DNA of 51,224 nucleotides from Pseudoflavonifractor phocaeensis (lineage in GTDB: Bacteria > Bacillota > Clostridia > Oscillospirales > Oscillospiraceae): NCBI RefSeq assembly GCF_021531815.1, contig NZ_JADYUM010000018.1, positions 1 through 51,224 of the forward strand, in the 5' to 3' direction. The position numbers and the translations under genes are program-made. The first letter of the stretch is position 1. Every line of letters starts with the position of its first letter. Below the pieces are notes generated by a model. The model was not told the origin of the DNA. It ran no database searches and saw only the letters and a list, made by a program, of their open reading frames with translations. This document shows, piece after piece, positions 3,184-18,794 of the stretch.

Positions 3184-3837
3184 TTATTCGGTTTTGGAAA
3201 ACGCCTGTTCTTCCGGGAGGTTCGGAACGATGAATTTCTTGTTTGTTACCGCAATGGCCAGCCGGGTCCTGTTGGCATATCCGGTTTTTGATAAAATGTT
3301 GGAAACATGGTATTTGACGGTTCTTTCCGAAACAGCCAGCTTGCCGGCGATCTCATCGTATTCCAAGCCGTCGCAGATCAGCCGCAGTACCTCGATCTCC
3401 TTTGCCGTCAGCTCCGTGCTTTCCACCAGGCCCAATTGAACCTTCGGCGTTTCGTTGGGGAAAAGACGCTCCCCCGCCATGGTCCGGTCGATCACGTCGA
3501 TCAGCGCTTCCGGGCTGATATCCTTATACCAGAAGCTGTCCACCCCGGCGGCTTTGGCCCGTTCCAGGTAGCTCACCTCAACCATGGAGGTGACAATGAT
3601 GATCTTGATATTCGGAAACTTCGCCTTGATCTCTGCGGCAGCTTCAATGCCGTCTTTACTCCCCGAAGTGCAGACATCCATCAAAATCAGGTCAATGTGC
3701 TGCTGTCCGCATTTCAAAATAGCAACATCCGCCCCGTTGAGACTGCCGGCCAGCTCATATCTGCCGCTGTCGGAAAGCGTCCGCTCCATGTTTTCACGGG
3801 GCATCCGCTGATCCTCCACAATAAGAACCCGTTTCAT
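3184..3837 (-). CDS. LuxR/NarL-family response regulator
   Basis: A DNA-binding response regulator of 217 residues. The N-terminal receiver domain has E8-D9, phospho-acceptor D54 (LILMDV), a Thr/Ser in IIIVTSM and a Lys in FWYKD, so it looks functional. The C-terminal LuxR-type helix-turn-helix (about 140-200) shows LTAKEIEVLRLICDGLEYDE, then VSERTVKYHVSNILSK, the usual family pattern. Its ATG overlaps the kinase stop by 4 bases (ATGA), so the two are translationally coupled. It is last in its operon. Likely targets are its own operon or the receiver/surface protein genes just downstream; this is inferred from position only. Confidence 0.93.
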   Translation of the reverse strand: MKRVLIVEDQRMPRENMERTLSDSGRYELAGSLNGADVAILKCGQQHIDLILMDVCTSGSKDGIEAAAEIKAKFPNIKIIIVTSMVEVSYLERAKAAGVDSFWYKDISPEALIDVIDRTMAGERLFPNETPKVQLGLVESTELTAKEIEVLRLICDGLEYDEIAGKLAVSERTVKYHVSNILSKTGYANRTRLAIAVTNKKFIVPNLPEEQAFSKTE

Positions 3838-5123
3838 TCTCTACCCTCCTGTATCGCCGGGAGAACCACGGTGAGCGCAAAGCCCGGCTTCGACTGTATT
3901 TCCATCGTGCCGCCGCAACCCATGATATGGCGGTATAGGTTGAGAAGTCCGCCCTTGGGAACGACCTCAGTTTCGGGAGGTTTTCCGTCGTTTGTGATCT
4001 GCATGGATACGCTGTCTCCCTTTTGCTCCACCGTGATCTGTATGGTTGTTGCTCCGGCATGACGCACGCTGTTTGTCAGACATTCCCGCATGGCAAGGAT
4101 CATCACCCGCCGAAGCTCCTCCTGCTCAGGCAACTCTCCGGACAAATTTACGGTTATGCCGATGGCCCCGGCATCCTGCAGGAATCTGTCCAGCTCGCTG
4201 TGCCCCCTCGGATCGGCATTATCGTATTTGATGGCGCTGACAGCACGGCGGAACAGATCCATGGCATTGGCCGCTTCCTCCGTTTGGTTGTTGTGAAGAA
4301 TGTGCCGTATGGCGATCAGCCCCGCTCCCATATCGTCATGCAGTTTCGTCTTGGCGGACAGCACTTCCTTTTCTCTTGTCAGGATCAGAGCATTGTCAGA
4401 AAGCCATTTGAGTTCCCGGGAAATGGCATTCAGCCGCTTGATCTGCGCTTTCAGCTCCAGACTCTTATGATACAGCTCCGTGACATCCGAAAAGATGGCT
4501 TCCGTATACACGACGCCGTCTGACGCTTTCACCTCGGTCTGCCGATAACTCCAGGCTTTGCCGTCAGGGAAAAGATAGGTCTGCATCTCCTGAGAGAGCC
4601 GGATCACGCCGCTGCACGCGTCGCAGCCGGACAGTGCGTCCCGCAGTTCCGCAAGCGTCTGGAGATCACACTGTGAGATCGAGCGGAACAGAGAATCCAT
4701 TTGCCGGTTGCACAGCTTCACGCTCCCGGAGGGCGTGAAATAGCAGATACCGCTTGGCAGCATATCCAGAGCCTGTTTGATGGAATCGCGGCTGAGCGCC
4801 TGCTTTCCTTGTCTCCGCAGCCCTGCCATATCCCATAGCAGCAGAAGATCTGCCGCAAATGTCATGCCCCATAAAAGCCACATAGGCAGAGGCAGCCATG
4901 TCCTGTACGCCAGTCCTTCGGTCATCCGGGAAAAAGCATCCGCCAACACGGACAATAAGATCAGAAAGAACAGAAATACGGACAGACGCAGAATACTTTT
5001 CCGTTTGTCACGCTGTCTGCCGTAAGCCTCAAGCATCAGGAAAAGGGAGAAAATCAGGGTGAGGAACAGGGCGACCAGCAGCGTCGTCTGTGCCGGAGCA
5101 GAAGAAAGATAAAAATTCCTCAT
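3834..5123 (-). CDS. Membrane histidine kinase, NarL/DesK type
   Basis: A 429-residue sensor kinase that should phosphorylate the regulator encoded immediately after it. Three hydrophobic segments lie within the first 100 residues, followed by a PAS-like region (about 113-212, around ICYFTPSGSVKLCNRQMDSL) and a helical linker. The phospho-acceptor box is HDDMGAG at about residue 262. The C-terminal ATPase domain has an N box (LTNSVRHAGA), a G1 box (ITNDGKP) and a G2 box (GGLLNLYRHI). The HDxxG box and a LuxR-type partner are typical of the HisKA_3 class. It overlaps both neighbours by 4 bases in a tight three-gene operon. Confidence 0.92.
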   Translation of the reverse strand: MRNFYLSSAPAQTTLLVALFLTLIFSLFLMLEAYGRQRDKRKSILRLSVFLFFLILLSVLADAFSRMTEGLAYRTWLPLPMWLLWGMTFAADLLLLWDMAGLRRQGKQALSRDSIKQALDMLPSGICYFTPSGSVKLCNRQMDSLFRSISQCDLQTLAELRDALSGCDACSGVIRLSQEMQTYLFPDGKAWSYRQTEVKASDGVVYTEAIFSDVTELYHKSLELKAQIKRLNAISRELKWLSDNALILTREKEVLSAKTKLHDDMGAGLIAIRHILHNNQTEEAANAMDLFRRAVSAIKYDNADPRGHSELDRFLQDAGAIGITVNLSGELPEQEELRRVMILAMRECLTNSVRHAGATTIQITVEQKGDSVSMQITNDGKPPETEVVPKGGLLNLYRHIMGCGGTMEIQSKPGFALTVVLPAIQEGRE

Positions 5124-6757
5124 GCCGGTTCACCCGCCTTTCCGATCCGCAGAGAAAAGCGCCATACGCCTTCCTCACAGGCGCAGGTGTCGGCAAGAGC
5201 GGACAGCGTCGACAAATCGGCTTTGCTTTCCGCCTGCAAGTAAAAGATGACAGCATCTTCCAGACTGCGGGCTTTCAGCCAGACAAAACGAAGGTCATCC
5301 ATGGCCGCTTCCGCCATGGCTTCGAAAAAGTCATAGACACGGATCGCGTCACGGGTATCAATGCTGTTTTTGCCCGGAATATCAATGGCACACTCCACAC
5401 CCATCAGCTCCAGATTGGCAAAGGATTCCTTCAGACAGGCTGACAGTTCGGCGGTATCTGTTACATTGGATTTTTCACCGATAAACATCAGATTACCCCG
5501 GCGTTTTATGTAGGCGCCGATCACCGCCGCTTTGGCCAGCAGACTGCGGCGAATCTCCGGGTCGGTTTCCGCCTCATTTTGCGTCAGCAGCTGATCCAGC
5601 AGCTCAATCTGATGGGCGGTTTGTGCCTGCAGCCGGTCATAGAGCCGGTTCTTTTCCCGGACTGCATTGATCTTTACCTTGGTTTTGTAGTTTTCCTGCT
5701 CCACATCATTGCTTTCCGAGATCGTTTTCCGGTTTTCCTCCAGCTTTTCCAGCAGAGCGGTAATGTCTGTAATATCCTCCTGCCACATAACATGGCCGCC
5801 ATTGATCTTACTGCTTCTGAGCAGCGTGTTGTGATCCAGCTTTGCCGCCTCGCTCTCCGCCGAGCGCATTATTTCCGCCGAAAGCTTAGGTGTGTTTGAA
5901 GAAGCATAACGGGTATCATAGTCCGTATCAACGATCTGCGCACCGATGGAGCCTGCTTCAAACAGCGCCTGGTAACCGGTGTTGGTCTGTATAAGCCCGC
6001 ACTGAATACAGCATTCCAAGATTCCGGTGAACATCAGGCACTGCGCTGCCGTGATGTCTCCGCCGATCAACTGCATCCATTCCACGCCGCTGACATATAT
6101 AAAGGCATATACGATAGAACATGCCAGCAGCAAAAACGGCAGATATTTTTTCCTATATGAGAGCCGACACTTGATTATCATAATAACAAATGCCGCTAAA
6201 GCGCAAAGGATCTCCCACCCGATCACGAAAAAATATCCGAATGAATAACTCATGTTATCGTCCGTCCATACCTCTCCTTCGGGGAAGGAAAAGACAAGCT
6301 GATGGAGATCATTTGTAAGCACCAGCAGCAGACAAAGAACCGTGGGAATAGATAATAACAGCAGCGCCGTTTTCGACAGCCTTGCGTTCTCGGGCTTGCC
6401 CAGTGAGATGGCCACAAACAAAGAAAACAGCGGGATAAACAGCATTGGCAGGTAGTACCAATACCACAGCTGCCGTGCTATTCCGATATCGGTTATAAAA
6501 AAGTATCTCATTGAACGGATCACAAACCAAAAAACCATTAAGCCGGAAACGGCAATCAGACAATGGCGCACCTGTACCTGAATGATCCGTTTGCTGACGG
6601 AAATTCCCCATCCGATATAAAGGGCGATATAGATCAGCGAGCGGAGGATCCCACCCGGAACTTTCAAGATATCAAACTTTCCCAAAACCCGTAAGGCAAT
6701 CGCAAAGAAAACCATTACAGCTACAAGAAAGCCTGTTTTGTGATTCTGTTTCGTCAT
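5120..6757 (-). CDS. 7TM sensor protein, kinase-like but lacking ATPase motifs
   Basis: This 545-residue membrane protein begins with about seven hydrophobic helices (residues 10-250), resembling the 7TM extracellular-sensing region found in front of many Firmicutes histidine kinases. A PAS-like part and a long polar helical segment (about 340-410, around NRLYDRLQAQTAHQIELL) follow. The C-terminal 130 residues occupy the place of a kinase ATPase domain, but I see no N box or glycine boxes, so it is probably a non-catalytic sensor or co-sensor. Its stop overlaps the start of the true kinase by 4 bases, which suggests they work as a pair. The start at 6757 has AGGAGGT 7 bases upstream. Confidence 0.75.
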   Translation of the reverse strand: MTKQNHKTGFLVAVMVFFAIALRVLGKFDILKVPGGILRSLIYIALYIGWGISVSKRIIQVQVRHCLIAVSGLMVFWFVIRSMRYFFITDIGIARQLWYWYYLPMLFIPLFSLFVAISLGKPENARLSKTALLLLSIPTVLCLLLVLTNDLHQLVFSFPEGEVWTDDNMSYSFGYFFVIGWEILCALAAFVIMIIKCRLSYRKKYLPFLLLACSIVYAFIYVSGVEWMQLIGGDITAAQCLMFTGILECCIQCGLIQTNTGYQALFEAGSIGAQIVDTDYDTRYASSNTPKLSAEIMRSAESEAAKLDHNTLLRSSKINGGHVMWQEDITDITALLEKLEENRKTISESNDVEQENYKTKVKINAVREKNRLYDRLQAQTAHQIELLDQLLTQNEAETDPEIRRSLLAKAAVIGAYIKRRGNLMFIGEKSNVTDTAELSACLKESFANLELMGVECAIDIPGKNSIDTRDAIRVYDFFEAMAEAAMDDLRFVWLKARSLEDAVIFYLQAESKADLSTLSALADTCACEEGVWRFSLRIGKAGEPA

Positions 6758-6797
6758 GCGGGACCTCCTTTCTGATCGACAGAATCATACAAAATAT

Positions 6798-6826
6798 ATT
6801 ATACGAATATCCGCAATTTTTCAAGA
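6798..6826 (-). promoter_or_regulatory. Promoter of the sensor operon
   Basis: On the minus strand TCTTGA (6821-6826) and a consensus TATAAT (6798-6803) are separated by 17 bases, about 40 bases before the start codon of the 7TM sensor gene. Confidence 0.7.
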
Positions 6827-7000
6827 ATCTGGCGTGAATTGTTCTTGAGCTCTGGAGTGCCGACTTCATTACGCAAAGGCTTTTTTAGGCCGGGGTTATG
6901 CAGTACGGCGGTGCTGCGAAGCAGATGTCATGCAACCATGTAAACAGCGGCGGGCATTGTCCTGCGCTCTTACAAATCATTTATTCAGGTTGATTTAAAC

Positions 7001-7040
7001 AGAAATAGCGGGAGCGCATCGTATAAAATGCACTCCCGCT
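7001..7040 (-). terminator. Hairpin after the relaxase-like remnant
   Basis: A 13-bp stem with one mismatch (7007-7019 with 7028-7040) follows the minus-strand stop codon at 7048-7050. The following bases are T-rich but not a clean run. It is probably the original terminator of the truncated mobility gene. Confidence 0.5.
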
Positions 7041-7047
7041 GTAATTT

Positions 7048-7180
7048 CATCGTTCCCAACTGTCTCGGCTTTTCTTCTTGTTCTGTTTCTGCTGATGTTG
7101 CTTCTGAAACAGACGTTCACGGATGGAGCGTGTCTCCGCTTCCTCAACTACATCCACTTCTATAATCATCAGCGTACTAT
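7048..7180 (-). pseudogene. 3' remnant of a relaxase-like conjugative-element gene
   Basis: The minus strand reads through about 44 codons to a TGA at 7048-7050. The end is very polar and basic (IRERLFQKQHQQKQNKKK, then SRDSWER). It resembles the C-terminal tails of relaxases in Tn1549-like conjugative elements and is followed by a hairpin, as those genes are. The upstream part is gone: from about 7180 the DNA instead encodes an AP2 domain on the other strand. The family call rests on recall of such tails and is tentative. Confidence 0.4.
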
Positions 7181-7182
7181 TT

Positions 7183-7425
7183 CGAGGCGTCTACTATAAT
7201 AAGAAACGTAACAAATGGATTGCTCAGATCATGTTTAAACGGAAGTGTTACTACCTTGGCGGATTCGAAAAGATTGAGGACGCAGTAAAGGCGCGGGCAA
7301 GAGGGGAAGAAATGTTTGACAACTTTCTGGACTGGTATTATGGACAAAGAAAAACTTTTGGAGGTGATATACTTGCGATCAATCATAAATCTACTCATGC
7401 GATACATGGAAACCTGCCCCTTTGA
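7183..7425 (+). pseudogene. AP2-domain protein fragment
   Basis: The reading frame encodes an AP2 DNA-binding domain: RGVYYNKKRNKWIAQI, then YYLGGFEKIEDAVKARARGE and FDNFLDWYYG. In bacteria this domain usually sits in phage or mobile-element proteins together with an HNH endonuclease or integrase part. Only the AP2 part is present. The residues before it match no family, and no ribosome binding site precedes the ATG at 7123, so I read it as a fragment joined to the relaxase remnant. Its 3' end overlaps the next gene. Confidence 0.5.
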
Positions 7426-7678
7426 CACTGGCGATTCGGATTGCCAGACTGTGCTGGATCAGCTATTTTGGGTCTACAGAGACTCCCACGAATCCGATCC
7501 GCCAGAGATCCGGAACAGCTTCCGGGAACTGGATGCCCTACTGAGGCATCTGCCGCTGGATGACAACAATGCGGTCTTCAATCTATGCTGCAGTCTCTGT
7601 ACGGCATATGAGTACAAGGCTTTCATCGACGGATTCCATTACGGCGTACAGCTAATAATGCAGTTGGACAAAAAGTAA
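7373..7678 (+). CDS. DUF6809-like small protein of mobile elements
   Basis: This is a protein of about 101 residues if translation starts at TTG 7373, which has GGAGGTGA 5 bases upstream; in-frame ATGs at 7316 and 7340 lack such a site. It is predicted to be all-helical. The ending, EYKAFIDGFHYGVQLIMQL, matches the pattern of the short DUF6809 proteins common on Firmicutes islands (a pairing helix, then Y-x-F-x-x-G-F-x-x-G). Function is unknown. A terminator follows directly. Confidence 0.55.
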   Translation: MRSIINLLMRYMETCPFDTGDSDCQTVLDQLFWVYRDSHESDPPEIRNSFRELDALLRHLPLDDNNAVFNLCCSLCTAYEYKAFIDGFHYGVQLIMQLDKK

Positions 7679-7687
7679 TATTTTCAC

Positions 7688-7731
7688 AAAAAAGCACCTT
7701 GCTAAGATTACTTCCTTGGCAGGTGCTTTTT
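7688..7731 (+). terminator. Rho-independent terminator
   Basis: A stem of AAAAAGCACCT with AGGTGCTTTTT encloses a 20-base partly paired loop and ends in a T run, 10 bases past the stop of the DUF6809-like gene. Confidence 0.85.
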
Positions 7732-7783
7732 GCATTTTTTACAAAATCTCTCTAATTTCCCGTGCGATATTTATGTGAATATC

Positions 7784-7812
7784 TAGCAATTAGTCAAACT
7801 GTGTGGTAGAAT
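7784..7812 (+). promoter_or_regulatory. Candidate promoter of the McrB-like operon
   Basis: TAGCAA (7784-7789), a 17-base spacer and TAGAAT (7807-7812) precede a leader of about 140 bases. The -10 region GTGGTAGAATAT recurs exactly at 14237-14248, ahead of the zinc-ribbon/DUF5067 gene. The rest of the 275-base gap shows no gene. Confidence 0.4.
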
Positions 7813-7953
7813 ATATTTTAGTAGATTATATCTAAGCTAGGATAGAGAATCCTTTACCGGTATAGTCTTACATACTATGAAAGGTGTGATTTCGAGGCAA
7901 AATTCGTTTTTTGACAATACACATAAATAAACAGAGAAAGAAGGGTAATTAGT

Positions 7954-10512
7954 ATGGGCGATTATTTAGGCTTTATTACAATTAGAAATCGGTATGTAAA
8001 TTTCAAACCACTATTCGAATACGTTGATGACGAATTTCGTCGTATGACCTCATATGATCGGCAAGCACTTCTGCCTGAATCACAATTTGAGGATATAAAC
8101 TTTTACTGCGAAGACGGCCACGACGAGGATTTTTTCGTAGATGGAGAATACTGTTTACTGACCCTAGAAGACGAAGATTTAGAGGACAATTTTTCCTACG
8201 GAGTCAGAAACCCAACCGGCTACAAGATTAACATTTCACCCAAAATGGATAACGGCGAAATCCGTTCTCTCAGTGAAGTGAACCGCTATCTTCTGTTAAC
8301 CAAGTCAAGATATGACGGTTCGTACAAAGCAAATCCCAAACTGATTATCAAGGATTCCTGTGTTTATGCTGGACTCAAGGTAGTTATTCTTGATGAGGAT
8401 AACTCCAACACTGTTATAGGTCCGTTTACCGTTGAACAATCTGATGGCGACGATGCACCATTTATTCGCACGGGACTTCAAACGCAAAAATATATCCTTT
8501 GGGGATACAAGTACCCTACGCATTTGGATCAGTATGGCATTAGTCTCGGTCGCTACGGAGATCAACGCACATATATAAAAGTTAACGATACTGTATGCAC
8601 TCGAATTCCAATTGATGTTATTACAAAAGCTCAATTGTTGACCGCATTTCGAGATGCAATTGGCCAAGAGTATTTTGTCGACGGAAAAATTGACTTGTCA
8701 CAGATTGATGCTTTATTGAAGGCCCAGGAAAGCTCGTTGTTTGTAGGGGAGCAAATTCCCGAATCTGTGCGAACAGCACGTTTTGAAACTCTCAGTAATC
8801 TACTTACAGATGAGGAGAATTTGAACGAAACCTTTGGATTCATATCTTCGACGATTACTTCTCTTTTAGAAAAATATCAGGGAGATCCGCAGTACAATCA
8901 CTTGGTTGAAAGATTGGCCAACGATTCTGATTTTATGTCCAGGATTCAACGGTTCCATATTATTTCGGAGAAAATAAAAGCCGAGGAATCCAAACTGCGT
9001 GAACTCAGTGACCAGGTAGATGCCCTTCAGCAGCAATTGGCACAACAGCCCCAAAGGGAATATGCAGAAGGCTTGCTTGCGGAATACGAAGATAAAATCC
9101 AAGAACTACGCAAGGAGAAATCTGCACTGGAAGCAGAAATCACCTCCCTATTAGCTTCGCATAAAGAATTCAGTACTCTTGCTGAGCTTGAGCAACAGGT
9201 TTCCCATAGAAAGTTAGAGCTGCGAGATATCGAAAGGGATACAGATGCCCTCGATAGAAAATTAGGGCGAATCTTCGACGATGCCGCAGAAAAGGCTGCT
9301 AACTTTGCCTTTGACGGAATGCTCTTCAATAAGATGCTCCGCAAAGCAGCAGAATGGGAAAATGCCCAAAATGCTGCAGACTATAGCACTAAAGAAACTG
9401 CATTCATGCAGATTCCTCTTTCTAGCGCAACCGGAGCAGACTTGATTGATCATTTGGTTGCAGAAATCCAAGCTGTGCGCCCTAACTATGACCGCAACAC
9501 AATTCTGAATATCTTGATCTGTTATACGCAGGGCTTCCTTACTGTTTTCTCGGGAGAACCAGGCACAGGTAAAACTTCAATCTGTAAAATTCTGGCATCT
9601 GTGTTGGGACTGTCAGTACCCGAAAAAACACTTCCTGCCTTTGCGGATGGATATGTTCCCACTCGCTTTATTCCTGTTTCTGTCGAGAAGGGTTGGACGA
9701 CCAAGCGTGATTTTATTGGCTATTATAACCCCCTCACAAAGTCCTTTGATCGCAGCAATAGAAGAATATTTGATGCGTTAAATATCCTTGATATCGAGGC
9801 AAGAGGGACTGGGGCAGATTTGCCTTTTGCTATTCTTTTGGATGAGGCAAATCTTAGCCCGATGGAGTATTACTGGGCTGACTATATGAACCTGTGTGAT
9901 GAACTGGACTCCAATAGTGTCATCAATTTGGGAGATAATTTCTGCTTCAGAGTTCCGACGAATCTAAGATTTGTTGCTACAATTAACAATGATGATACTA
10001 CTGAATCGCTGTCTCCTCGTTTGATTGACAGAGCGTGGATCATTAGATTGCCCAAGGCCCGTTCGGGAACGGCAAAACCCGTCAAGATCCGGACATCTGG
10101 CGATATGATTCCTTGGAGTGCTTTGGTTCATACCTTTGGCACATCCGAACAGAATTATACAGAAATGAGTGGTGTTGCCAAGAGTATTTATGAAGAACTA
10201 CTCGGTAAGTGCAGAACAGCCAAGATTAATGTCAGCACACGTGTGGACAATGCCATTCGTATGTATTGGTCTGCTGCTCAACGGCTTTTTGAGTCTTCTG
10301 CTGATACAGATGCTTCTATTTCTGCGTTGGATTATGCTGTTGCACAGAGAATTCTCCCGCATATTGACGGCAGTGGTGTGAACTTTGGTGAACGGTTAAA
10401 GGAAATCCAACAATTTTGCAGTGACAAAAATTTGCGTCTTTCTGCAGAGATTTTACAAGAGATTATTCATACAGGTATCAACTCCATGCAGTATTATCAT
10501 TTCTTCGCATAG
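7954..10512 (+). CDS. McrB-like AAA+ motor protein with coiled coil (type IV restriction-like)
   Basis: An 852-residue protein, probably the NTP-driven motor of a McrBC-type defence system. Residues 1-240 are an unrecognised beta-rich region where McrB proteins carry their target-reading domain. Residues about 335-440 form a long coiled coil (KAEESKLRELSDQVDALQQQ and onward). The AAA+ module has Walker A GEPGTGKTS at about 533, Walker B ILLDEAN at about 626 and a sensor region ATINNDDTTESLSPRLIDR at about 674. The NTADRS-type signature of classical McrB is not present, so GTP specificity cannot be assumed. The start follows AGAAAGAAGGG. The nuclease gene begins 11 bases after the stop. Base use is much AT-richer than in the core. 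Confidence 0.85.
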   Translation: MGDYLGFITIRNRYVNFKPLFEYVDDEFRRMTSYDRQALLPESQFEDINFYCEDGHDEDFFVDGEYCLLTLEDEDLEDNFSYGVRNPTGYKINISPKMDNGEIRSLSEVNRYLLLTKSRYDGSYKANPKLIIKDSCVYAGLKVVILDEDNSNTVIGPFTVEQSDGDDAPFIRTGLQTQKYILWGYKYPTHLDQYGISLGRYGDQRTYIKVNDTVCTRIPIDVITKAQLLTAFRDAIGQEYFVDGKIDLSQIDALLKAQESSLFVGEQIPESVRTARFETLSNLLTDEENLNETFGFISSTITSLLEKYQGDPQYNHLVERLANDSDFMSRIQRFHIISEKIKAEESKLRELSDQVDALQQQLAQQPQREYAEGLLAEYEDKIQELRKEKSALEAEITSLLASHKEFSTLAELEQQVSHRKLELRDIERDTDALDRKLGRIFDDAAEKAANFAFDGMLFNKMLRKAAEWENAQNAADYSTKETAFMQIPLSSATGADLIDHLVAEIQAVRPNYDRNTILNILICYTQGFLTVFSGEPGTGKTSICKILASVLGLSVPEKTLPAFADGYVPTRFIPVSVEKGWTTKRDFIGYYNPLTKSFDRSNRRIFDALNILDIEARGTGADLPFAILLDEANLSPMEYYWADYMNLCDELDSNSVINLGDNFCFRVPTNLRFVATINNDDTTESLSPRLIDRAWIIRLPKARSGTAKPVKIRTSGDMIPWSALVHTFGTSEQNYTEMSGVAKSIYEELLGKCRTAKINVSTRVDNAIRMYWSAAQRLFESSADTDASISALDYAVAQRILPHIDGSGVNFGERLKEIQQFCSDKNLRLSAEILQEIIHTGINSMQYYHFFA

Positions 10513-10523
10513 GAGTATGAATT

Positions 10524-13232
10524 ATGAATGAATTAATCTTGCGGCTTTTGCCGGATCATGGTGATCCGCAGGATCTGGTTCTTTTAGATCATCAAACAGA
10601 AAATTCGATACTCGATACAGCAAAGCTATCCACATCGTTTGTATTCTGTGACCATAAATATCATGCACAACTGGTAAACCTGAATGAGCCTATCGAAAAT
10701 TTAAGATTCTTCGTTAACGGAGAACCTGTCCGCATTAATTATTCATCAGATAGTGGGGATATTACCTTTTTTGATGAATCATTTGGTGCACGAATTTTCC
10801 AGGAATGCTATGGCTTTGTGCAGATTACTGTTATCTACAACGATGCTAGTGGCAACCAACACTTCCGAGATACGGAATATATTCAAGTCATGGTACGGAA
10901 AGGTCGCCAAAATGACTCGGTCCGTCGCATCACTGAATATGTATACACCCAAAATGCTGAATTGCTTTACGGAAAGTCTTTGCCTCGGGAAACTGCTGGA
11001 TTAAGAGAAAACGCAAAAAAGACCCTCGAGTCTCGAATTCTTCTGCTTGAACGCATTGCAGTTGTTTATGAAGAAAATTATCGTTATTTCAAAATAAACT
11101 GCAGATTTAAAACAATCCCTCACGAACGAGTGGATCATTTTGAAAAACTGCAGTATGTTTCTAATAATACACTGCAATATATTGCTCAGCATCCAGAAGA
11201 ACTTCAGCCTGTTCACTATTCTACCGGCATAAAGGTTGGCCGTAACTTCTACCAACCTAACAAAACATTGATAACAGATAGTGTCAAATCTTTTGACATA
11301 TACGAAAACCAAGTTGTTGTCGGATTTTTGATGCATCTTAACACTGAAATAAAAAGAATTGAGCAAGAACTAATTTCCATCACTGCTAGTGTTCCGCAAC
11401 AAGTTTTTGAAACGGATGACTACATTACTTCTTCTTATTTCATATACGCCAATACAATCGCCGCCCTGAAAATTATATTGACGGATGTCGAAAAGTTGAG
11501 GCAAAAATACGAACATCTGTGTATTTCGTATTCTGCTATCCTTCCAATAAAAACCATTCCCATTACCGGAATACCCCGATTTACACATCTTTTTAAATCT
11601 GTACAGCAGTACCATCAGATTTATCAGTGTGCAATTTCTTGGTTCTCGATGGGTGCGTTTTCTTTGAGTGAGGAAAACTTTATGCTTTCGTTCATAAAAA
11701 TGAGCGCTTTGTATGAAGTATATGTACTAGCTAAGATGATCGCCTTTTTTAAATCAGCGGGATTTGAAGTTGCAGATACAAATCGGCTATTGTATCCCGT
11801 ATCTGCATCATCTCGATTCCGCAATGCACATTGCAATAATGTATATGTGTTGAGAAAAGGAAGCAGTACGGTAACGCTTTACTATCAGCCGGTTATATAC
11901 AGCACCGATATGAGTTCTTTCAGCGGTGTTGGCTTATACCGAAATACTGCAATTTCTTTTCCTGATGCTGATGCCGGAAGCATAATTCAGAGGAGAACTC
12001 AAGATTACAATCCGATGTATACACCTGATTTCTTGTTGAAATATGAGTCTGAAGATACTGAAGGCGCTCGATATCTTATTGCAGACGCAAAGTTTAGCAC
12101 GGTTAAAACTGTAAAAACACATCAAGTGGCAAAATTGGCATATAAATATTTATTCTCAATTTCGCCTATTTCTGCATCAGATTCCGTTGTAGGACTGTGT
12201 GTGTTTAATGGTCAGTCGAATGTTGATGATGATAAAATGCACAATATTTATGATTTCGAACTGGCTAATACAATCTCCCCTAAGGCCGAAATCGTAACGT
12301 TGACCGAGAATTCTATTGATAATCGTGCGCTGCATGAGGTGCTGTTACACAATTCGATAGGGTTGTATGTAAGCTATCCTCCTCGCAGAACTATGCTGTT
12401 GCCACAACTGGGTTCTATACCGGAAACTTCTCGTAGGCCGCAGCTAGAGGAGGAATCTCATACGCCCGCCGTATCTATCGGCAATACACCTACTGCGCCA
12501 GCAGAACCTCCAGCTGAGTTACATGCACCTTCTGTACATGATTCGGTGGTATCCGATTTACCGGAAGTTCCTAACCCTTCTATTGAAATTCCTGTTGAAA
12601 CTGGCTCTTCGCCCCCACAAAAGCAGGCTTCAAAAAAGAAGAAGGGGAAAACTGAAAACAATCCAATGCTGATGAATATTGCAATTCTCAAGCTGGATAA
12701 GAATACTGCTACTAGACTTCAGGAAGCAGGAATCACAACTATTGGTGATTTAGTTCCAAACCGTAGTAAGCACGATCTTGCTGATAATCCTCTTTTAAAT
12801 CGCAAACTTAGGCGCGAAATCGAGGCTCGGCTCAAGGCATTGAAAGTGACATTGAGTGCAAACCCAAAGCCAAAAGCACAAATCAAAACGACTCCTATTG
12901 TCCAAATTCCGCCCTTACCCCAGGGAGATCTGAAAATTGGTGAGTTTGTACGTTTGGCTCTGCTAAATTTGAGTGCAAGTGGTTACGAGTTCAACCCCGA
13001 AGAAATCGATGAAATGTGCTCCTCGGAATGGTCCGTCAAAACATTCCATACGAAACACACATTTATGAAACGCTATACACCAGGATTGTCTGATAACAAG
13101 GGACAAGATGGCTATGTTCGTTACTGGAGTGAACCATTTTCTTTTGGTGGAGTTCAAGTGTTGATTTCCAAGGAATGGTTTGAGGGGAATCAGCGCAATT
13201 ACTTTATAAGCTGGTATAGCTCTCTAAGCTAA
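10524..13232 (+). CDS. McrC-like DUF2357 / PD-(D/E)XK nuclease with C-terminal HhH domain
   Basis: A 902-residue partner of the AAA+ protein encoded upstream. About residues 60-330 match DUF2357, the family found in McrC-like nucleases (YIQVMVRKGRQ; SFDIYENQVVVGFL). A PD-(D/E)XK core follows: TPDFLLKY near 503, then YLIADAKF near 518-525, giving the D...D-A-K pattern, with a downstream helix THQVAKLAYKY. A Pro/Glu/Ser-rich linker (about 640-705) leads to a helix-hairpin-helix domain resembling the RNA polymerase alpha C-terminal domain (RLQEAGITTIGDLVP, about 730). A final region of about 100 residues ends in a Trp/Tyr-rich WFEGNQRNYFISWY. The tail domains are unlike classical McrC (about 350 residues). 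It probably cleaves nucleic acid recognised by the AAA+ partner. Confidence 0.82.
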   Translation: MNELILRLLPDHGDPQDLVLLDHQTENSILDTAKLSTSFVFCDHKYHAQLVNLNEPIENLRFFVNGEPVRINYSSDSGDITFFDESFGARIFQECYGFVQITVIYNDASGNQHFRDTEYIQVMVRKGRQNDSVRRITEYVYTQNAELLYGKSLPRETAGLRENAKKTLESRILLLERIAVVYEENYRYFKINCRFKTIPHERVDHFEKLQYVSNNTLQYIAQHPEELQPVHYSTGIKVGRNFYQPNKTLITDSVKSFDIYENQVVVGFLMHLNTEIKRIEQELISITASVPQQVFETDDYITSSYFIYANTIAALKIILTDVEKLRQKYEHLCISYSAILPIKTIPITGIPRFTHLFKSVQQYHQIYQCAISWFSMGAFSLSEENFMLSFIKMSALYEVYVLAKMIAFFKSAGFEVADTNRLLYPVSASSRFRNAHCNNVYVLRKGSSTVTLYYQPVIYSTDMSSFSGVGLYRNTAISFPDADAGSIIQRRTQDYNPMYTPDFLLKYESEDTEGARYLIADAKFSTVKTVKTHQVAKLAYKYLFSISPISASDSVVGLCVFNGQSNVDDDKMHNIYDFELANTISPKAEIVTLTENSIDNRALHEVLLHNSIGLYVSYPPRRTMLLPQLGSIPETSRRPQLEEESHTPAVSIGNTPTAPAEPPAELHAPSVHDSVVSDLPEVPNPSIEIPVETGSSPPQKQASKKKKGKTENNPMLMNIAILKLDKNTATRLQEAGITTIGDLVPNRSKHDLADNPLLNRKLRREIEARLKALKVTLSANPKPKAQIKTTPIVQIPPLPQGDLKIGEFVRLALLNLSASGYEFNPEEIDEMCSSEWSVKTFHTKHTFMKRYTPGLSDNKGQDGYVRYWSEPFSFGGVQVLISKEWFEGNQRNYFISWYSSLS

Positions 13233-13280
13233 ACCTCAAGAACCATTCCAATTGCACCATTACGATCCACGTAAACAGCA

Positions 13281-13320
13281 AAAGACCACACTAAAGGTTT
13301 TACCCTTTGGTGTGGTCTTT
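13281..13320 (+). terminator. Rho-independent terminator after the McrBC-like operon
   Basis: AAAGACCACAC (13281-13291) pairs perfectly with GTGTGGTCTTT (13310-13320), with further inner pairing (AAAGG with CCTTT). It can act on both strands. Confidence 0.9.
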
Positions 13321-13374
13321 ACTCGTTGTACCGCCCGAAAAGAATCAGATGAAATTAGTTTGTTGTACTAATCC

Positions 13375-13533
13375 CTAACCGCAACTCCCGTTGGAGCATT
13401 TCTTTTGTTTCAACCATTTGTCCAGATATTCCGGCAGGCTGTCCAAATGCATTTCACTGCGATTTTCAGCAAAGTAGTCCAGAATGTTGTCTGATTGGCT
13501 GATCTCATGGGTCAGCTCGTCTGTTGTTTTCAT
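13375..13533 (-). pseudogene. Truncated HTH-family protein (N-terminal stub)
   Basis: A 52-residue reading frame starts at ATG 13533 with GGAGGTGA 6 bases upstream. The sequence MKTTDELTHEIS...LPEYLDKWLKQK looks like the N-terminal lead of a family of Clostridia regulators in which a helix-turn-helix continues after this point. Here the frame turns into KKCSNGSCG and stops. A good promoter and ribosome binding site remain, so a short peptide may still be made. It could be a genuine small protein rather than a broken one. Confidence 0.5.
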
Positions 13534-13566
13534 GTGGCTTTCACCTCCAACCACGATACTACGCTC

Positions 13567-13604
13567 ATTATAGCACAAAAAGGTTAGCTGCCAGCTAACC
13601 TTTT
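13567..13604 (-). promoter_or_regulatory. Promoter with palindromic operator
   Basis: On the minus strand a consensus TATAAT (13567-13572) lies just downstream of a perfect inverted repeat, AAAAGGTTAGCT-GCC-AGCTAACCTTTT (13578-13604), which covers the expected -35. This is the layout of an auto-repressed promoter. The palindrome could also fold as a terminator, but nothing obvious needs terminating there. Confidence 0.55.
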
Positions 13605-13673
13605 CTGATTTTGTCCCTGCTATGATATGGAAAGAAGCCCCCAATAAAATATGAAAAGGAAAGAGGAAATCAA

Positions 13674-13829
13674 ATGATCTCTGCTGTGCTTTCTGTTGTA
13701 ATTGTCAATATTGCTTATAAGCTCTACGCCAAGCTGATTGGTGCGGATGTGATGTTCTTCAGTGGGAAAAAGAAGCTGGCGGCATACGTTGTGCTGTGGG
13801 CGCTTCTCTTTGCTACAATCGGAATCTAA
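13674..13829 (+). CDS. Small membrane peptide, 51 residues
   Basis: ATG 13674 follows AAAGAGGAA at a suitable distance and opens a frame of 51 codons to TAA at 13829. The peptide has two hydrophobic helices (ISAVLSVVIVNIAYKLYAKL and AAYVVLWALLFATIGI) around a short GKKK turn, so it should span the membrane as a hairpin. I recognise no family. It sits between two small regulator-like genes on the opposite strand, a position where toxin-like peptides occur; that role is speculation. Confidence 0.5.
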   Translation: MISAVLSVVIVNIAYKLYAKLIGADVMFFSGKKKLAAYVVLWALLFATIGI

Positions 13830-13864
13830 ATCACTGCAGCGGGGTTTCCTTCGCCGCAGTGATC

Positions 13865-14191
13865 TTAATCCACTTTCATCAAGAACAGTTTCAACACTTC
13901 CTCGGCCAGTTTCAATTCTCTGTCTGTGCAACGGGAAAGCAGCTCTTGTACACCGGATGTGTCCCCCGGTTCATAACCGGAACCGTGAATAATATATTCC
14001 ATTGGAAGGTGCATGGATTGAGACAGCTTAATGAGTGTGTCGATGGACATTTGCGAGGTGCCAACTTCAAGCTGACCGTAATACCCTGTTCCAATGTCCG
14101 CCAGCTCAGCCATCTTTTCGCGGGTCAGTCCCAATTCCTGCCGCCGTTGCCGCAAACGCTGGCCTATTTCAATCAGCTGTTGCTTTTCCAT
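13865..14191 (-). CDS. XRE-family transcriptional regulator
   Basis: A 108-residue protein with an N-terminal Cro/C1-type helix-turn-helix (residues 6-62: IGQRLRQRRQELGLTREKMA, then LEVGTSQMSIDTLIKLSQSM). A C-terminal helical tail of about 40 residues probably dimerises. The start at 14191 is preceded by AGAGGTGG. It is divergent from the zinc-ribbon/DUF5067 gene and shares a 108-base intergenic region with it, so it may control that gene. It converges with the small membrane peptide gene; an imperfect hairpin (about 13829-13863) lies between them. Confidence 0.88.
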   Translation of the reverse strand: MEKQQLIEIGQRLRQRRQELGLTREKMAELADIGTGYYGQLEVGTSQMSIDTLIKLSQSMHLPMEYIIHGSGYEPGDTSGVQELLSRCTDRELKLAEEVLKLFLMKVD

Positions 14192-14217
14192 TACGCCTTA
14201 CCACCTCTTTTTCGTTA

Positions 14218-14246
14218 TTGTAATATGAGAATAGACGTGGTAGAAT
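14218..14246 (+). promoter_or_regulatory. Promoter of the zinc-ribbon/DUF5067 gene
   Basis: TTGTAA (14218-14223), a 17-base spacer and TAGAAT (14241-14246) lie in the divergent region between the XRE regulator and this gene. Confidence 0.6.
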
Positions 14247-14299
14247 ATGTTATAAGATATCTAAAAATAATACTTATAAAAGTAGGTGGGGCAGATAAT

Positions 14300-16174
14300 A
14301 TGAGTTATATATGTAAAAAATGTGGAAACGAACTGACGGATGATGCTTTATTTTGCAGCAGATGCGGGGAGAAGGTCACGATTACGGCACCGAAATGCCC
14401 TAACTGCGGGCGAGAACTCTCAGAATATGCGAAATTCTGTGCATTTTGCGGAACTAAAATCTGCGGTGACAGCCAGCCTCTTTCGGAGCAGTCCTCGGAG
14501 CACACGGCTGAACAACCTGAAGGAGCACTTTTGCCTGATTTTGAGCCAGCAGTGGAAGAACAGACTGACCACAGCAAGGATACCATTGATTCCCAGTCCG
14601 AATCAACACAGCAGTTAGACATTTATAAGCAGCTCAAGAGCTATGAGCAGGCGGGAAAGGATAATACCGTAGAATATTATGAGTTGCTGAAAAAAGAGAA
14701 GAAAGCTTACTTCTGGAACAAACTGATTGGATTTATTGCCGCGATTATGGCCTGTTGCCTTGTGCCAATTCTGTTTAGCGAGGGCGGAATTGGAAGCAAA
14801 CTATTGAAGATCACCGTGCTCGGCTTCGCATTTACAATTCCCATGTTTTTATGTTCTTCAAGAATTCAAAAGCTAACAGGGATTAAAGTAGGTATTTCAT
14901 TATCAAGCCTGTTTGCCAACAAGACCAAGGATGAGGAAACTGCGGAAGAAAAAGAGATCGATGCGGGAATGGATTATTTCATCCGCTGTGTGAAAGGGCG
15001 CCATCCGGGTGCGGATCGGACTGTCAGGATCCTGATGGTTGTTGCGACTGTGATTGCAATCGTTTGTTTTGTCATTTGTATTGGCGCGGAAATCAATTTC
15101 TGGGAGTCCCTCCAGCTTGCGCTAATGCTTCTATATTCCATTGCCGCTGTAATTTATGGAATTTGGACCTTCAAATTTGCCATTATTCTTATTTTGCTCG
15201 CAATCGGAGCCATTCTTTCTCTATTTTCCGATGACAAGGGCATATCTTCTTATCCGATTAACACAGAAACATCGCAGGCCGTATCATCACAGGCCGAAGA
15301 TACCTGCGTTACAATTAGCGGCGCAAGGTTGGACGAATACAACGGAAAGGAAGCAATCGTTGTTTCCTACTCCTGGACAAATACAACCAATTCCAAAACC
15401 AGCGCCATCTATAATGTAGCAATTCATGCGTACCAGAACGATATCGAACTGGAGAAAGCCTATTTTACAGATGCTGATGATGAACTCTTGTCGAGAAATA
15501 TAAAACCGGGTGTCACAGTTGATTTGAAAGAAGCGTTCTATTTGGACGATCCGGATGCTGATATTCTGGTAGAAGCAACACCGTGGATTGCACTGGATGG
15601 TGAAGTTTACATCAGCGAAACATTTACCAGAAGCACAGAACAAGCAAGCGAAAGTGACAATGATCGGCCATCATGGGAATATGACGATTATGTTCGTTAC
15701 TACGGCGTTGATCCAGCTGACTATGGATACATGTGGTACAATGAAATAAGGAGCGGTCCTCTGGACGAATTCTTTGAGTATGCAATGGAAGCTATCTACG
15801 GAGAATCCAATACCTCAACCTCTCGCCTTTACGACATAAGTAATCCATACGAAGCATATTTGACACCGGATGACTTCATTGGAACATGGCGAACAGATGG
15901 CGGCATCATATTCACAATTCAGTATACGGATGGTGAGTACTCAATAGATTTGTCAGAAAATGAAGGACTTGGGATTCTTGGAGGTTGGTTTTCTGAGAAA
16001 CTCTACAATGTAGAGGGAACCTTTTGCGGGCTAGCCGGTTCGAATGGGGTAACAGAATTTTCCGTTTCTTATGAATATGGCAGTGAGCCCCCTATAGATT
16101 CATGGCTTACCCTTATACTCGTAGATAGCGCTGGCCAAGAAATCTATGACTATGTTCCTCTCATTAGCAATTAG
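14300..16174 (+). CDS. Membrane protein with double zinc ribbon and DUF5067-like domain
   Basis: The ATG at 14300 (AGGTGGGG upstream) gives 624 residues. Residues 4-52 contain two zinc ribbons (CKKCGNEL...CSRCG and CPNCGREL...CAFCG). An acidic, Ser/Gln-rich linker leads to about five membrane helices between residues 140 and 315. The outer part begins with a DUF5067-like domain (about 340-450: VTISGARLDEY, IVVSYSWTNTTNSKTSA), known from Clostridia extracytoplasmic proteins. A final region (about 520-624) holds DDFIGTWRTDGGIIFTI, resembling lipocalin-like stress proteins. Function is unknown. The layout, a cytoplasmic zinc ribbon with an external sensing or binding domain, suggests signal relay or envelope monitoring. 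In-frame codons upstream of 14300 overlap the XRE gene and are not part of it. Confidence 0.75.
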   Translation: MSYICKKCGNELTDDALFCSRCGEKVTITAPKCPNCGRELSEYAKFCAFCGTKICGDSQPLSEQSSEHTAEQPEGALLPDFEPAVEEQTDHSKDTIDSQSESTQQLDIYKQLKSYEQAGKDNTVEYYELLKKEKKAYFWNKLIGFIAAIMACCLVPILFSEGGIGSKLLKITVLGFAFTIPMFLCSSRIQKLTGIKVGISLSSLFANKTKDEETAEEKEIDAGMDYFIRCVKGRHPGADRTVRILMVVATVIAIVCFVICIGAEINFWESLQLALMLLYSIAAVIYGIWTFKFAIILILLAIGAILSLFSDDKGISSYPINTETSQAVSSQAEDTCVTISGARLDEYNGKEAIVVSYSWTNTTNSKTSAIYNVAIHAYQNDIELEKAYFTDADDELLSRNIKPGVTVDLKEAFYLDDPDADILVEATPWIALDGEVYISETFTRSTEQASESDNDRPSWEYDDYVRYYGVDPADYGYMWYNEIRSGPLDEFFEYAMEAIYGESNTSTSRLYDISNPYEAYLTPDDFIGTWRTDGGIIFTIQYTDGEYSIDLSENEGLGILGGWFSEKLYNVEGTFCGLAGSNGVTEFSVSYEYGSEPPIDSWLTLILVDSAGQEIYDYVPLISN

Positions 16175-16386
16175 AAAGTTTTTCTCACCTATATTTTTGC
16201 TTAGAAATGCCGAAATGTGAGATAGAATACAGGTGGCTAGATAACACAGTCAAAAGATAATCCTCCGGAATCCATTGAAATAACAGGGATTCCGGGGGAT
16301 GCAGCAAATGTCGGAGAACTACCTGAAAAGCGGCACAATGTACTCCTAAGCGGAAGAAACGTATCTTGTCTATCAAAATATAACGT

Positions 16387-16420
16387 CCTCGATTCACTTT
16401 GGAATCGAGGGCGTTGTTTT
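16387..16420 (+). terminator. Rho-independent terminator in the gap before the OLD gene
   Basis: CCTCGATTC (16387-16395) pairs with GAATCGAGG (16402-16410) and is followed by a T-rich run. The gap 16175-16560 also holds a second hairpin (16262-16273 with 16287-16298) and the promoter described next. I see no gene in it. Confidence 0.65.
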
Positions 16421-16484
16421 TGGTTAAGCGCTAGCACCTATGGCACACAAAAATGCAAATTTACTGTCACAAAAGCGAGATTCA

Positions 16485-16513
16485 TTGCGATAATTGTCAG
16501 GCAATGATATAAT
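16485..16513 (+). promoter_or_regulatory. Promoter of the OLD nuclease gene
   Basis: TTGCGA (16485-16490), a 17-base spacer and a consensus TATAAT (16508-16513) lie about 47 bases before the start codon. Confidence 0.8.
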
Positions 16514-16560
16514 TGTAAAAAAAGACATTATAAGTGCCGAATTGAGGAGGCAAGTCGCAA

Positions 16561-18282
16561 ATGAAAATTGCAAACTTACAAATACAAAAGTTTAGGTCAA
16601 TAGACAACGCGACGATTACAATTGAACAAATATTAGCTGTTGTAGGTGCTAACAATGCGGGCAAGTCTCATTTTCTACGTGCACTAAATGCTTTTTTTAA
16701 TTACAATGATGAAAAAGAATCATTTCTAAGCCAAGACCATGTATATAGTCTTCGTTCTCGTCCAAAGATTACAGTAACTTTCACTGACATCCAGCCCGAG
16801 GATCAGATAAACCCTGATTATATTTACGACGATTCCCTTACAATACGTTTTACGTACAGATGGGATAGAAAAACTCCTTCTTATGATATTATTAAAGCAC
16901 ATCATGCACAAACAATTAGTGTTGACCAATTTGAATCCCTAATTAGCCATTTTCGTTATATATACGTTCCGATTGTTAGAAATTACGAAAGTGCAATTTC
17001 TGGAGACGGGGGCATAGCATATGGTCTTTTAAAATCTATATTCCAGCATCAAGTTGCCAATAGAAATACTATTCAGCCTTTGGTTGATCGCTTAACCGAC
17101 AAGATAAAAAATACAGTTTTCAAGTCAGCTCTTAATAGCATAAAGCAGTATTATCCATTAGGAAATGCAGACTTCGCTATACAAGCTGTGAATAACGAAG
17201 TTGTGGATTTGATCCTCCGCTCAGTTTCCTTGTTTTTGTCTGAAAATACTCAAAGCAATGAAATTAACAACTGCGGAAGTGGAATTCAAAGTGCAGTATA
17301 TTTTGCGATTTCTATGGCAGTAGCAATTGAGGATAATATAAACTATTTAGTTGGCATAGAAGAGCCAGAACTCAATATGCATCCACAAGCACAGCGGCAA
17401 CTTATTGAAACATTAAAAAATCCAACGAAGTATCCTAAAACTCAATTTATTTTAACAACTCATTCGACTGTTATAATCGATAAACTTGGCCACACGTCAA
17501 TAGTATTATGTCGCAAGAGCAAAGTTCCTGGCAGAGACGTTGTCACAACAGCAACACAAATTTTGCCGAATTTTTGGGAGAAATATAGTTTCAGCCAAGA
17601 GCGATATTACAATTTTTACCAATACAAAAACAGCGATTTCTTTTTTAGCAATTACATCATCATAACAGAGAGTCCTACTGACTGTAATATTATTGCTGCG
17701 TTGCTTTCGAAATGTAATATTGATATAGAAACTAGAGCAATATCTTTAATACCTGCTGATGGAGAAAAAAGCATTAAGTATCCATATGCTCTGGCAAAGG
17801 AACTTGGGATTCCTTTTATCTGCATTGTTGATAGGGATGTATTCCTGCCATATTCAGAGAATAGTCGAAAAGAAAGTTTAGGGGAAGATGGAATACCGCA
17901 ATACCGTCCCGTCAAAAAGGAATCTTCACCAATCTATGATTTATTGAAGCAACATGATTTAGATCAGGTCGTTAATTCTTTCATAAATAATAAATATGAT
18001 GAAGTACTAGAACTACTGCATCCGTATCATATCGTATGTATGCGGTATGCAATTGAAGTTGATTTAGCGGTATGCACCTCATATTGCAACGCGATTTGTG
18101 ATGTCCTTGAATTACCTGAAGAAAACAAAACCACAGCGTTTTTACTGAAAAAAAGAAGCAATCGCATTAAGGATTATGATGTGATCACTGCTACTTTTAA
18201 TATGGTGCCAACAAAGAATCTTCCCAAATCTTACAAACGGATTATCGCCTGTGTAAGAGAAATGATTAGAAACAACACATGA
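16561..18282 (+). CDS. OLD-family ATPase / TOPRIM nuclease
   Basis: A 573-residue anti-phage-type nuclease. The N-terminal ABC-like ATPase has Walker A GANNAGKSH (about 30-38), Walker B GIEEPELNMH (about 264) and the H-loop TTHST. The C-terminal TOPRIM domain has the catalytic Glu in IIITESPTD (about 369) and the DxD motif as DRD (about 423). The size and order match OLD class proteins, including GajA of Gabija, but no UvrD-type helicase follows, so it is a solitary OLD gene or one of another subtype. GAGGAGG precedes the ATG. It is strongly AT-rich compared with the core. Confidence 0.88.
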   Translation: MKIANLQIQKFRSIDNATITIEQILAVVGANNAGKSHFLRALNAFFNYNDEKESFLSQDHVYSLRSRPKITVTFTDIQPEDQINPDYIYDDSLTIRFTYRWDRKTPSYDIIKAHHAQTISVDQFESLISHFRYIYVPIVRNYESAISGDGGIAYGLLKSIFQHQVANRNTIQPLVDRLTDKIKNTVFKSALNSIKQYYPLGNADFAIQAVNNEVVDLILRSVSLFLSENTQSNEINNCGSGIQSAVYFAISMAVAIEDNINYLVGIEEPELNMHPQAQRQLIETLKNPTKYPKTQFILTTHSTVIIDKLGHTSIVLCRKSKVPGRDVVTTATQILPNFWEKYSFSQERYYNFYQYKNSDFFFSNYIIITESPTDCNIIAALLSKCNIDIETRAISLIPADGEKSIKYPYALAKELGIPFICIVDRDVFLPYSENSRKESLGEDGIPQYRPVKKESSPIYDLLKQHDLDQVVNSFINNKYDEVLELLHPYHIVCMRYAIEVDLAVCTSYCNAICDVLELPEENKTTAFLLKKRSNRIKDYDVITATFNMVPTKNLPKSYKRIIACVREMIRNNT

Positions 18283-18521: not shown

Positions 18522-18578
18522 CCTCGAAATCAGGTTGTCCGCAAGGGCACGTGGGTTCGAATCCCACCGTCTCCGCCA
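18522..18578 (+). other. 3' part of tRNA-Ser(CGA), putative attachment site
   Basis: From the anticodon loop (CTCGAAA) onward the sequence is a proper tRNA-Ser 3' half: anticodon-stem 3' strand TCAGG, a long variable arm, T arm GTGGGTTCGAATCCCAC, acceptor strand CGTCTCC, discriminator G and encoded CCA. The 5' half is missing: the bases before the loop cannot pair with TCAGG. A tRNA cut at the anticodon loop is a standard crossover scar of tyrosine-integrase elements. The intact gene should lie beyond the left edge. Confidence 0.8.
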
Positions 18579-18579
18579 C

Positions 18580-18762: not shown

Positions 18763-18794
18763 ATTTGATCGTTTACAAATAGATCCGCCCCGTT

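Follow-up and report, generated by a model that had tools for sequence, protein, structure and literature searches.

A probable two-gene McrBC-type system of the NxD branch, with a tailed McrC-like nuclease, in Pseudoflavonifractor phocaeensis

A 51,224-nucleotide stretch of Pseudoflavonifractor phocaeensis DNA (contig NZ_JADYUM010000018.1, called the window below) carries adjoining genes for an McrB-like AAA+ protein and an McrC-like nuclease. Carried by a mobile island, they probably make up an anti-virus system that cuts DNA and belongs to a broad type already known. The reading we prefer, and consider fairly likely, is that the pair is a restriction system of McrBC type (type IV-like), mobile and made of two genes, which belongs to the NxD branch and whose McrC has gained a tail for tethering or targeting. 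The pairing of the genes, the motor and nuclease motifs, the NxD signature, the fact that relatives lie on mobile elements and the recurrence of the last module of the tail can all be read from sequence, whereas ring assembly, stimulation, cutting and defense are expected by analogy with known McrBC systems. The broad McrBC type and the NxD branch are known. What may be new is an McrC with a swappable tail that ends in an unnamed portable module.

The two open reading frames are separated by 11 nucleotides, and a GGAG sequence that overlaps the stop of the McrB-like gene precedes the McrC-like start (Table 1). Features that mark McrBC (type IV) systems are seen in the pair: an AAA+ McrB with Walker A and B motifs and an Nx(x)D signature, an adjoining McrC, a DUF2357 match, and PD-(D/E)xK motifs. 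An earlier note, made by a model from the letters of the window, had proposed an McrBC-like system with a nuclease core, and the DUF2357 match and the conservation of the motor and nuclease motifs in nine relatives support this prediction.

That note had also pointed to the lack of an NTADRS signature. The signature is indeed absent, but this is no sign of oddity, because in its place stands NxD, a motif known from a published branch of McrB; the window protein reads TINNDD here. Of the consensus loop, both Asn and Asp are kept, with one residue fewer between them. An alignment of nine McrB proteins has N678 and D680 fixed, while residue 681 varies (D, D, H, H, H, H, S, E, A). The alignments concerned (A5 and A6) hold nine related pairs and leave out L081 and the L052 and L053 pairs, the latter two being included in alignments A1 and A2. 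The divergent L053 motor reads TLQKD in alignment A2, without the Asn, and the McrB of a control locus (L078) has TMNSADQ, whose NSAD is of the NxxD form. By its motif the window McrB belongs to the NxD branch, which is a major branch of McrB according to Bell et al. (2024; PMC11090510). By the account of that paper, none of the NxD McrB proteins had yet been characterized. A compact two-gene member, with a relative that is intact in some Escherichia coli genomes, would open the motor, its nucleotide and its target to direct test.

Residues 1 to 249 of the window McrB match no Pfam family at E ≤ 0.1 and no PDB sequence at E ≤ 10, in agreement with the earlier description of an unrecognized N-terminus of about 240 residues. 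The region is kept in 12 relatives with an invariant G-P-F (alignment A11), and among the 12 members of this alignment three stray Pfam families appear, each in one member (best E 0.014). The coiled coil predicted for this protein is likewise recovered, both as SMC/Rad50/LmuB-type matches at about residues 284 to 440 and as long helices (325 to 363, 372 to 401, and 409 to 472) in an AlphaFold model, although this model is poor (mean pLDDT 39.8) and was used for hints only.

The McrC-like protein matches DUF2357 with E 1e-4 and 22.0 bits in one scan, just under the cut-off of 23.3, and with 24 bits, over the cut-off, in another. Five residues (E398, P501, D502, D521, and K523) are invariant across nine McrC relatives. 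These motifs predict a PD-(D/E)xK nuclease and support the view that it is intact-looking. Profile comparison by hhalign relates the McrC to that of other NxD pairs (probability 99.1, E 1.2e-18) and of Type I-B-like loci (probability 98.2, E 4.5e-14), which favors the McrBC reading.

Beyond the nuclease core lies the tail, in which the Pro-rich linker, helix-hairpin-helix (HhH) and terminal domain noted earlier can all be found. The HhH stretch matches RpoA-CTD at E 0.033 in Pfam (under the cut-off) and at E 5.8e-5 in NCBIfam (TIGR02027, under the whole-protein cut-off), and Foldseek pairs the poor McrC model with alpha-CTD chains (probabilities 0.93 and 0.97; E 0.075 and 0.18; rows without a residue range). 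The resemblance to RpoA-CTD is thus weak but concordant. Weak matches to BREX PglW (E 0.0036 and 0.0039) fall on this stretch as well. The sequences do not support the idea that the extra domains are a defining part of the system, since nine of 12 related McrC proteins lack them. The tail does not define the family because only three of the 12 have one and these are of two unrelated kinds, one shared by the window and L002 and the other, a charged tail, found in L081. Moreover, the McrC of L003, which is 54% identical in the core, ends tail-less at about 626 amino acids.

The last 100 or so residues of the McrC are a true domain rather than a chance sequence, because they recur in other proteins. 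They end GIY-YIG proteins on two IMG/VR contigs (L072 and L073) with 65-67% and 55-57% identity, the GIY-YIG assignment resting on a Pfam match of E 4.8e-6, and these proteins have no HhH match. The L073 copy directly follows Vsr and PLD genes and a gene for an MZB-domain protein. A profile search found the module in two other architectures (E 2.1e-10 and 9.5e-9), namely an HNH-like protein (L077; HNH by eye, none from Pfam) and the NxxD McrB of L078. It also occurs in proteins of about 345 to 375 amino acids beside HsdR (L038, and by eye L039), an HNH_2 gene (L041), a WYL gene (L044), and others. In the profile search, matches were obtained in six of 196 genomes of the class, the own genome included, and two Priestia plasmid records hold the module. 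A candidate carrier that is patatin-like by eye (L079) was not counted, its match covering 52 of 97 columns at E 1.2e-4. One R and two W are invariant in an alignment of 11 module sequences. In Pfam, NCBIfam, PHROGs, and PDB sequences the module has no convincing match; weak matches that were not counted came from NCBIfam in one or two of 11 members (best E 0.0024) and from PDB (best E 0.031). This domain may be a portable module for target selection or tethering, and from the company it keeps we would guess that the module, or the tail as a whole, binds DNA. Its presence on several unrelated nucleases offers a lead to a reader that could explain their choice of DNA. No description of the gene pair or of the module was found in the open-access literature searched, and subscription papers, or the follow-up announced in PMC11090510, may differ.

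Relatives of the pair are found in several mobile settings. Direct scans revealed L002 (McrB 97% identical) and L003 (50-52%) in metagenome-assembled genomes from cattle and goat colon, a related pair in IMG/VR (L054) lies on a contig with integrase-like genes by eye, and genome searches added two full pairs (G334 and G499). Sixteen of 391 genomes of the class match in an McrC search, of which three, including the own genome, cover most of the protein. A profile built from five sequences matches 13 of 398 genomes of the phylum, two of them, again including the own genome, below E 1e-100. None of 48 other genomes of the genus, many of which are incomplete, matches, and a genus search of 80 genomes (54 of them at least 90% complete) returned the own genome alone. 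When plasmids were searched with the McrB by tblastn, 253 records matched, in one case across at least 80% of the query; from these matches, plasmid-borne pairs in Acinetobacter, Klebsiella, and Citrobacter came to light. Sequence similar to the Klebsiella pair is present in 63 plasmid records, 25 of which hold at least 80% of it, and in none of 5426 E. coli genomes, while the Citrobacter pair occurs at 100.0% identity in three of the 5426. One of these E. coli copies (L095) was inspected and lies beside tRNA-Phe in an element that resembles an integrative and conjugative element (ICE), with TraI and an integrase. The phage collection yielded no McrC relative.

The way in which such a pair might act can be outlined from characterized systems. 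According to PMC7680126, McrB forms an AAA+ hexamer specific for GTP, while McrC, which bears the nuclease, stimulates hydrolysis and has a finger domain that it inserts. By analogy, the McrB-like subunits would assemble into an AAA+ ring, from which the coiled-coil spacer would set off an N-terminal region that reads the target. The McrC-like partner would dock in the ring and boost hydrolysis of nucleoside triphosphates, and its PD-(D/E)xK nuclease would cut the invading nucleic acid, most likely DNA. In the lineage of the window, the flexible linker, HhH and terminal module added to McrC might then tether or steer the nuclease.

Several points weigh against this reading. Nine of the 12 related McrC proteins stop near residue 530 to 630, which suggests that the core works without a tail. 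Because the McrB model is poor, calling the N-terminal region a reader is a guess from its position. The McrC model is also poor (mean pLDDT 46.2); no fold was obtained, and it too served for hints only. Two records of the phage collection match L072 in its GIY-YIG part and not in the module. No defense phenotype for the McrBC family of the window is reported in the literature that the searches brought up. A comparison of the McrC with the single Type II/III-like CnuC tried (L084) by hhalign gave no match (probability 0.3). Finally, CoCoNuT systems, including those of Type I with a similar layout, are predicted to act on RNA, and many perhaps on DNA too, according to PMC11090510.

This last point leads to the first rival explanation, which we regard as unlikely, though as the likeliest of the rivals. 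The pair could be a Type I CoCoNuT, most likely of Type I-C or a sister group, in which CnuB would combine an OB/YTH-like reader with the coiled coil, CnuC would bear an Ig-like sandwich, and the target would be RNA, for example that of translation components. The NxD motif, the coiled coil, and the presence of only two genes, as in Types I-A and I-C, all fit, and to this extent the kinship suggested in the earlier note stands. The weak McrC model has strands at the N-terminus, and Foldseek gives it a row to 2n80 chain B (probability 0.82, E 0.028, no residue range). The entry 2n80 is p75NTR DD:RhoGDI, and we take its chain B to be RhoGDI. A RhoGDI likeness is named for the CnuC of Types I-B and I-C in PMC11090510, where the domain is also placed in the McrC of NxD systems other than CoCoNuTs. 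By hhalign the N-termini are unmatched to their Type I-B-like counterparts, both for McrB (probability 0.3) and for McrC (probability 0.1), which speaks against this rival. An N-terminal extension of the related McrB in L051 (308-733) resembles the start of Type I-B CnuA in one comparison (probability 80.2, E 1.4e-5), whereas L050 alone, or aligned with L051, shows no such likeness (probability 0.1). The intact PD-(D/E)xK motifs and the HhH of the tail also count against a CoCoNuT.

Phylogenetic trees bear on the same question, although the CoCoNuT anchors in them were named by gene context and represent Type I-B-like and Type II/III-like systems only, without sequences of Types I-A or I-C. 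Two anchors (L084 and L085) have genes for a UPF1-like helicase (AAA_11/AAA_12), for an McrB-like and a DUF2357 protein, and for a further protein that weakly matches wHTH. The Type I-B-like anchors are seven Bacillota rows, six of which (L086-L091) have a coiled-coil-like gene upstream by eye, and the seventh (L033) groups with them. Four of these upstream genes were scanned; two had no Pfam match and two had only weak coiled-coil-type matches, so the scan did not reveal the PYD and REC domains expected of CnuA. A 46-row tree sets the window McrB and 11 relatives apart by a branch (97/88) and places the nine anchors in another group (97/95). A 39-row tree, which omits L024, L029, L052, L053, L010, L017, and L020 for long branches or distance, likewise places the family (10 rows) and the nine anchors on separate branches (99/99 and 89/86.8). 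Yet a single clade of family and anchors is not rejected on the latter tree (p-AU 0.316). Ordinary Bacillota NxD pairs were set aside as the closest kin, as a joint clade with them is marginally rejected (p-AU 0.046). In the 39-row tree the outgroup L078, on a very long branch, attaches beside the family, as flagged by a warning of the program. The deep placement of the family is therefore weak, and its basal position may be an artifact.

Gene content and spacing provide further clues. From the start of Walker B to the start of T-I-N-x-D there are 49 residues in the window protein, versus 53 to 69 in 29 Bacillota rows (L005-L033) and 60 in L084, a spacing that leaves no room for the helical insert of Type I-A. 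Five neighbors in the window were scanned and include no CnuH-, CnuE-, or HEPN-type gene and no signal-peptidase gene, which together with an FtsB-like domain on McrB marks CoCoPALM. Inspection by eye of nine related loci showed no CnuH- or CnuE-type genes; the one exception is a UvrD-type helicase that belongs to the element following L071. The controls L084 and L085, by contrast, do have a helicase gene. Together with a motor group of its own beside the anchors, this counts against the CoCoNuT kinship proposed earlier. A separate or sister lineage is most consistent with these results, with CoCoNuT membership as a less likely possibility. A target different from those of known systems, as had been suggested, is possible. 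A bolder proposal, which we hold tentatively and with more doubt than conviction, is that the pair represents a lineage of NxD McrBC systems that is undescribed and falls outside the CoCoNuT types, carried by mobile elements of Bacillota and Pseudomonadota. The last 100 or so residues of its McrC would then be a portable, unnamed recognition domain that defense nucleases of unrelated fold (GIY-YIG, HNH-like, NxxD McrB, and this McrC) take up in order to select a target.

The second rival, which we consider improbable, is that the pair is not directed against phages at all but serves the carrying mobile element in competition with other plasmids and ICEs or in its maintenance. The relatives on plasmids and on an ICE-like element favor such a function, but defense genes too travel on these elements, and an OLD-like nuclease gene lies near the pair in the window. 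Least credible of all is a transcription-linked effector, in which the alpha-CTD-like domain would bind RNA polymerase or promoters and so direct the nuclease to phage transcription, because the RpoA-CTD-like match that favors it is shared with weak matches to BREX PglW, HhH is a general DNA-binding fold, nine of 12 relatives lack the HhH, and the terminal module sits on GIY-YIG proteins without it.

Comparison with known systems helps to define the preferred reading of a mobile McrBC-type restriction pair. E. coli K-12 and Thermococcus gammatolerans McrBC, of the NxxD branch, share with the window pair the adjacent genes, AAA+ motor, DUF2357, and PD-(D/E)xK nuclease, whereas the window pair has NxD rather than NxxD, a long coiled coil, the unrecognized N-terminal region, and the McrC tail. 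CoCoNuT Type I, as presented in PMC11090510, is alike in its NxD motif, the N-terminal region and coiled coil on the motor, the two-gene form (I-A and I-C), and a possible beta-sandwich at the McrC start; the window motor differs in grouping apart from the anchors and in lacking the I-A insert, and its McrC differs in the tail with HhH and unnamed module. The PADLOC candidate system PDC-M26 also has an NxD-type McrB, and PDC-M26A matches residues 335-659 of the window McrB (E 4.7e-27). This match is partial (92.8 bits, versus 1107.4 for the full member L083), and L083 lies on another branch of the tree. The same model matches eight other NxD McrB proteins scanned, from other groups or from the own family (E 6.7e-21 to 6.5e-57), and the full pair of L083 served as the positive control (1107.4 and 1428.2 bits). 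PDC-M26 was therefore rejected, given the partial PDC-M26A match and the finding that PDC-M26B matches none of six McrC proteins of the family. Also close are the two-gene NxD pairs on plasmids and an ICE-like element, L069, L070, L071, L081, and L095 (E. coli), which share the tree group, layout, GPF, and NxD, with nuclease motifs in L069-L071, but are only about 17-24% identical and have no tail or, in L081, an unrelated one.

Table 1. Features of the window, followed by features of related loci (positions within the locus named)
Feature	Position	Strand	Basis or remark
McrB-like AAA+ protein, 852 amino acids	7954..10512	+	Open reading frame; Pfam AAA E 3.8e-4; relatives L002 (97%) and L003 (50-52%)
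Unrecognized N-terminal region (putative reader), residues 1-245, GPF at 156-158	7954..8688	+	Conserved in 12 relatives; GPF invariant
Coiled coil, about residues 325-440	8926..9273	+	SMC/Rad50-type matches; long helices in low-confidence model
Walker A GEPGTGKT, 534-541	9553..9576	+	Sequence, alignment
Walker B ILLDEAN, 627-633	9832..9852	+	Sequence, alignment
N-x-D signature, N678-N679-D680	9985..9993	+	N678 and D680 invariant in nine relatives
McrC-like nuclease, 902 amino acids	10524..13232	+	Open reading frame; DUF2357; hhalign to other NxD-type McrC probability 99.1, E 1.2e-18
Possible beta-sandwich, McrC residues 1-125	10524..10898	+	Strands in low-confidence model
DUF2357 match, 201-288	11124..11387	+	Two scans, 22.0 and 24 bits
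PD-(D/E)xK motifs, P501-D502 ... D521-x-K523	12024..12092	+	Invariant in nine relatives; conserved E398 at 11715-11717
Pro-rich linker, 616-700, running into a Lys-rich run	12369..12623	+	Sequence
RpoA-CTD-like HhH, 711-771	12654..12836	+	Weak concordant matches
Unnamed terminal module, about 803-902	12930..13229	+	Recurs in other proteins
Terminator-like hairpin downstream of the pair	13578..13604	+	12 pairs
Two-component-type genes	3184-6757	-	By eye; opposite strand to pair
Small open reading frame, AP2-type DNA-binding match	7123-7425		E 2.1e-6, under cut-off
Helix-turn-helix gene	13865-14191	-	
Double zinc-ribbon, DUF5067 protein	14300-16174		Beside helix-turn-helix gene
OLD/GajA-like ATPase-TOPRIM nuclease gene	16561-18282		PADLOC Old E 4.4e-43
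tRNA T-arm and CCA end, likely right island edge	18548..18578	+	By reading of sequence; then terminator-like hairpin
Related pair starting just after smpB gene and intact transfer-messenger RNA (tmRNA) gene (1335-1686)	L003:751-2020		smpB by eye
GIY-YIG proteins ending in terminal module	L072:1-918; L073:2377-3291		IMG/VR contigs
NxxD-type McrB, terminal module before motor	L078:439-2697	-	Adjoins C5-cytosine methylase
Plasmid-encoded protein matching sigma-70 region 4 and RpoA-CTD	L081:12694-13386		Few genes after related McrBC pair

The surroundings of the pair fit a mobile island. The genes lie in sequence of 35-50% G+C that ends near position 18578, beyond which the G+C content is 60-65%. 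The sequence at this likely right edge reads as a tRNA 3' end, although ARAGORN reports no tRNA in the window and the assembly holds no second copy at up to three mismatches; a tmRNA at this edge was ruled out, as the 16-bit match reads as the tRNA 3' end. No direct repeats of at least 20 bases were found in 6700-19800. The contig is the window itself, and the left edge of the island lies outside the view. On the left flank, the protein encoded at 5120-6754 finds no match when 40 other genomes of the genus are searched. The island may therefore extend to the start of the contig, and an empty site could not be demonstrated from this side. The same is true of the right flank, whose gene family has many copies.

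Among the neighboring genes, the upstream two-component genes were not counted as part of the system, being on the other strand and not seen at L002. Terminator-like hairpins are frequent in the region, with 18 sites compared with 9.5 in shuffled sequences. The OLD/GajA-like gene downstream, which shares the low-G+C stretch with the pair, is probably a second defense gene of the island.

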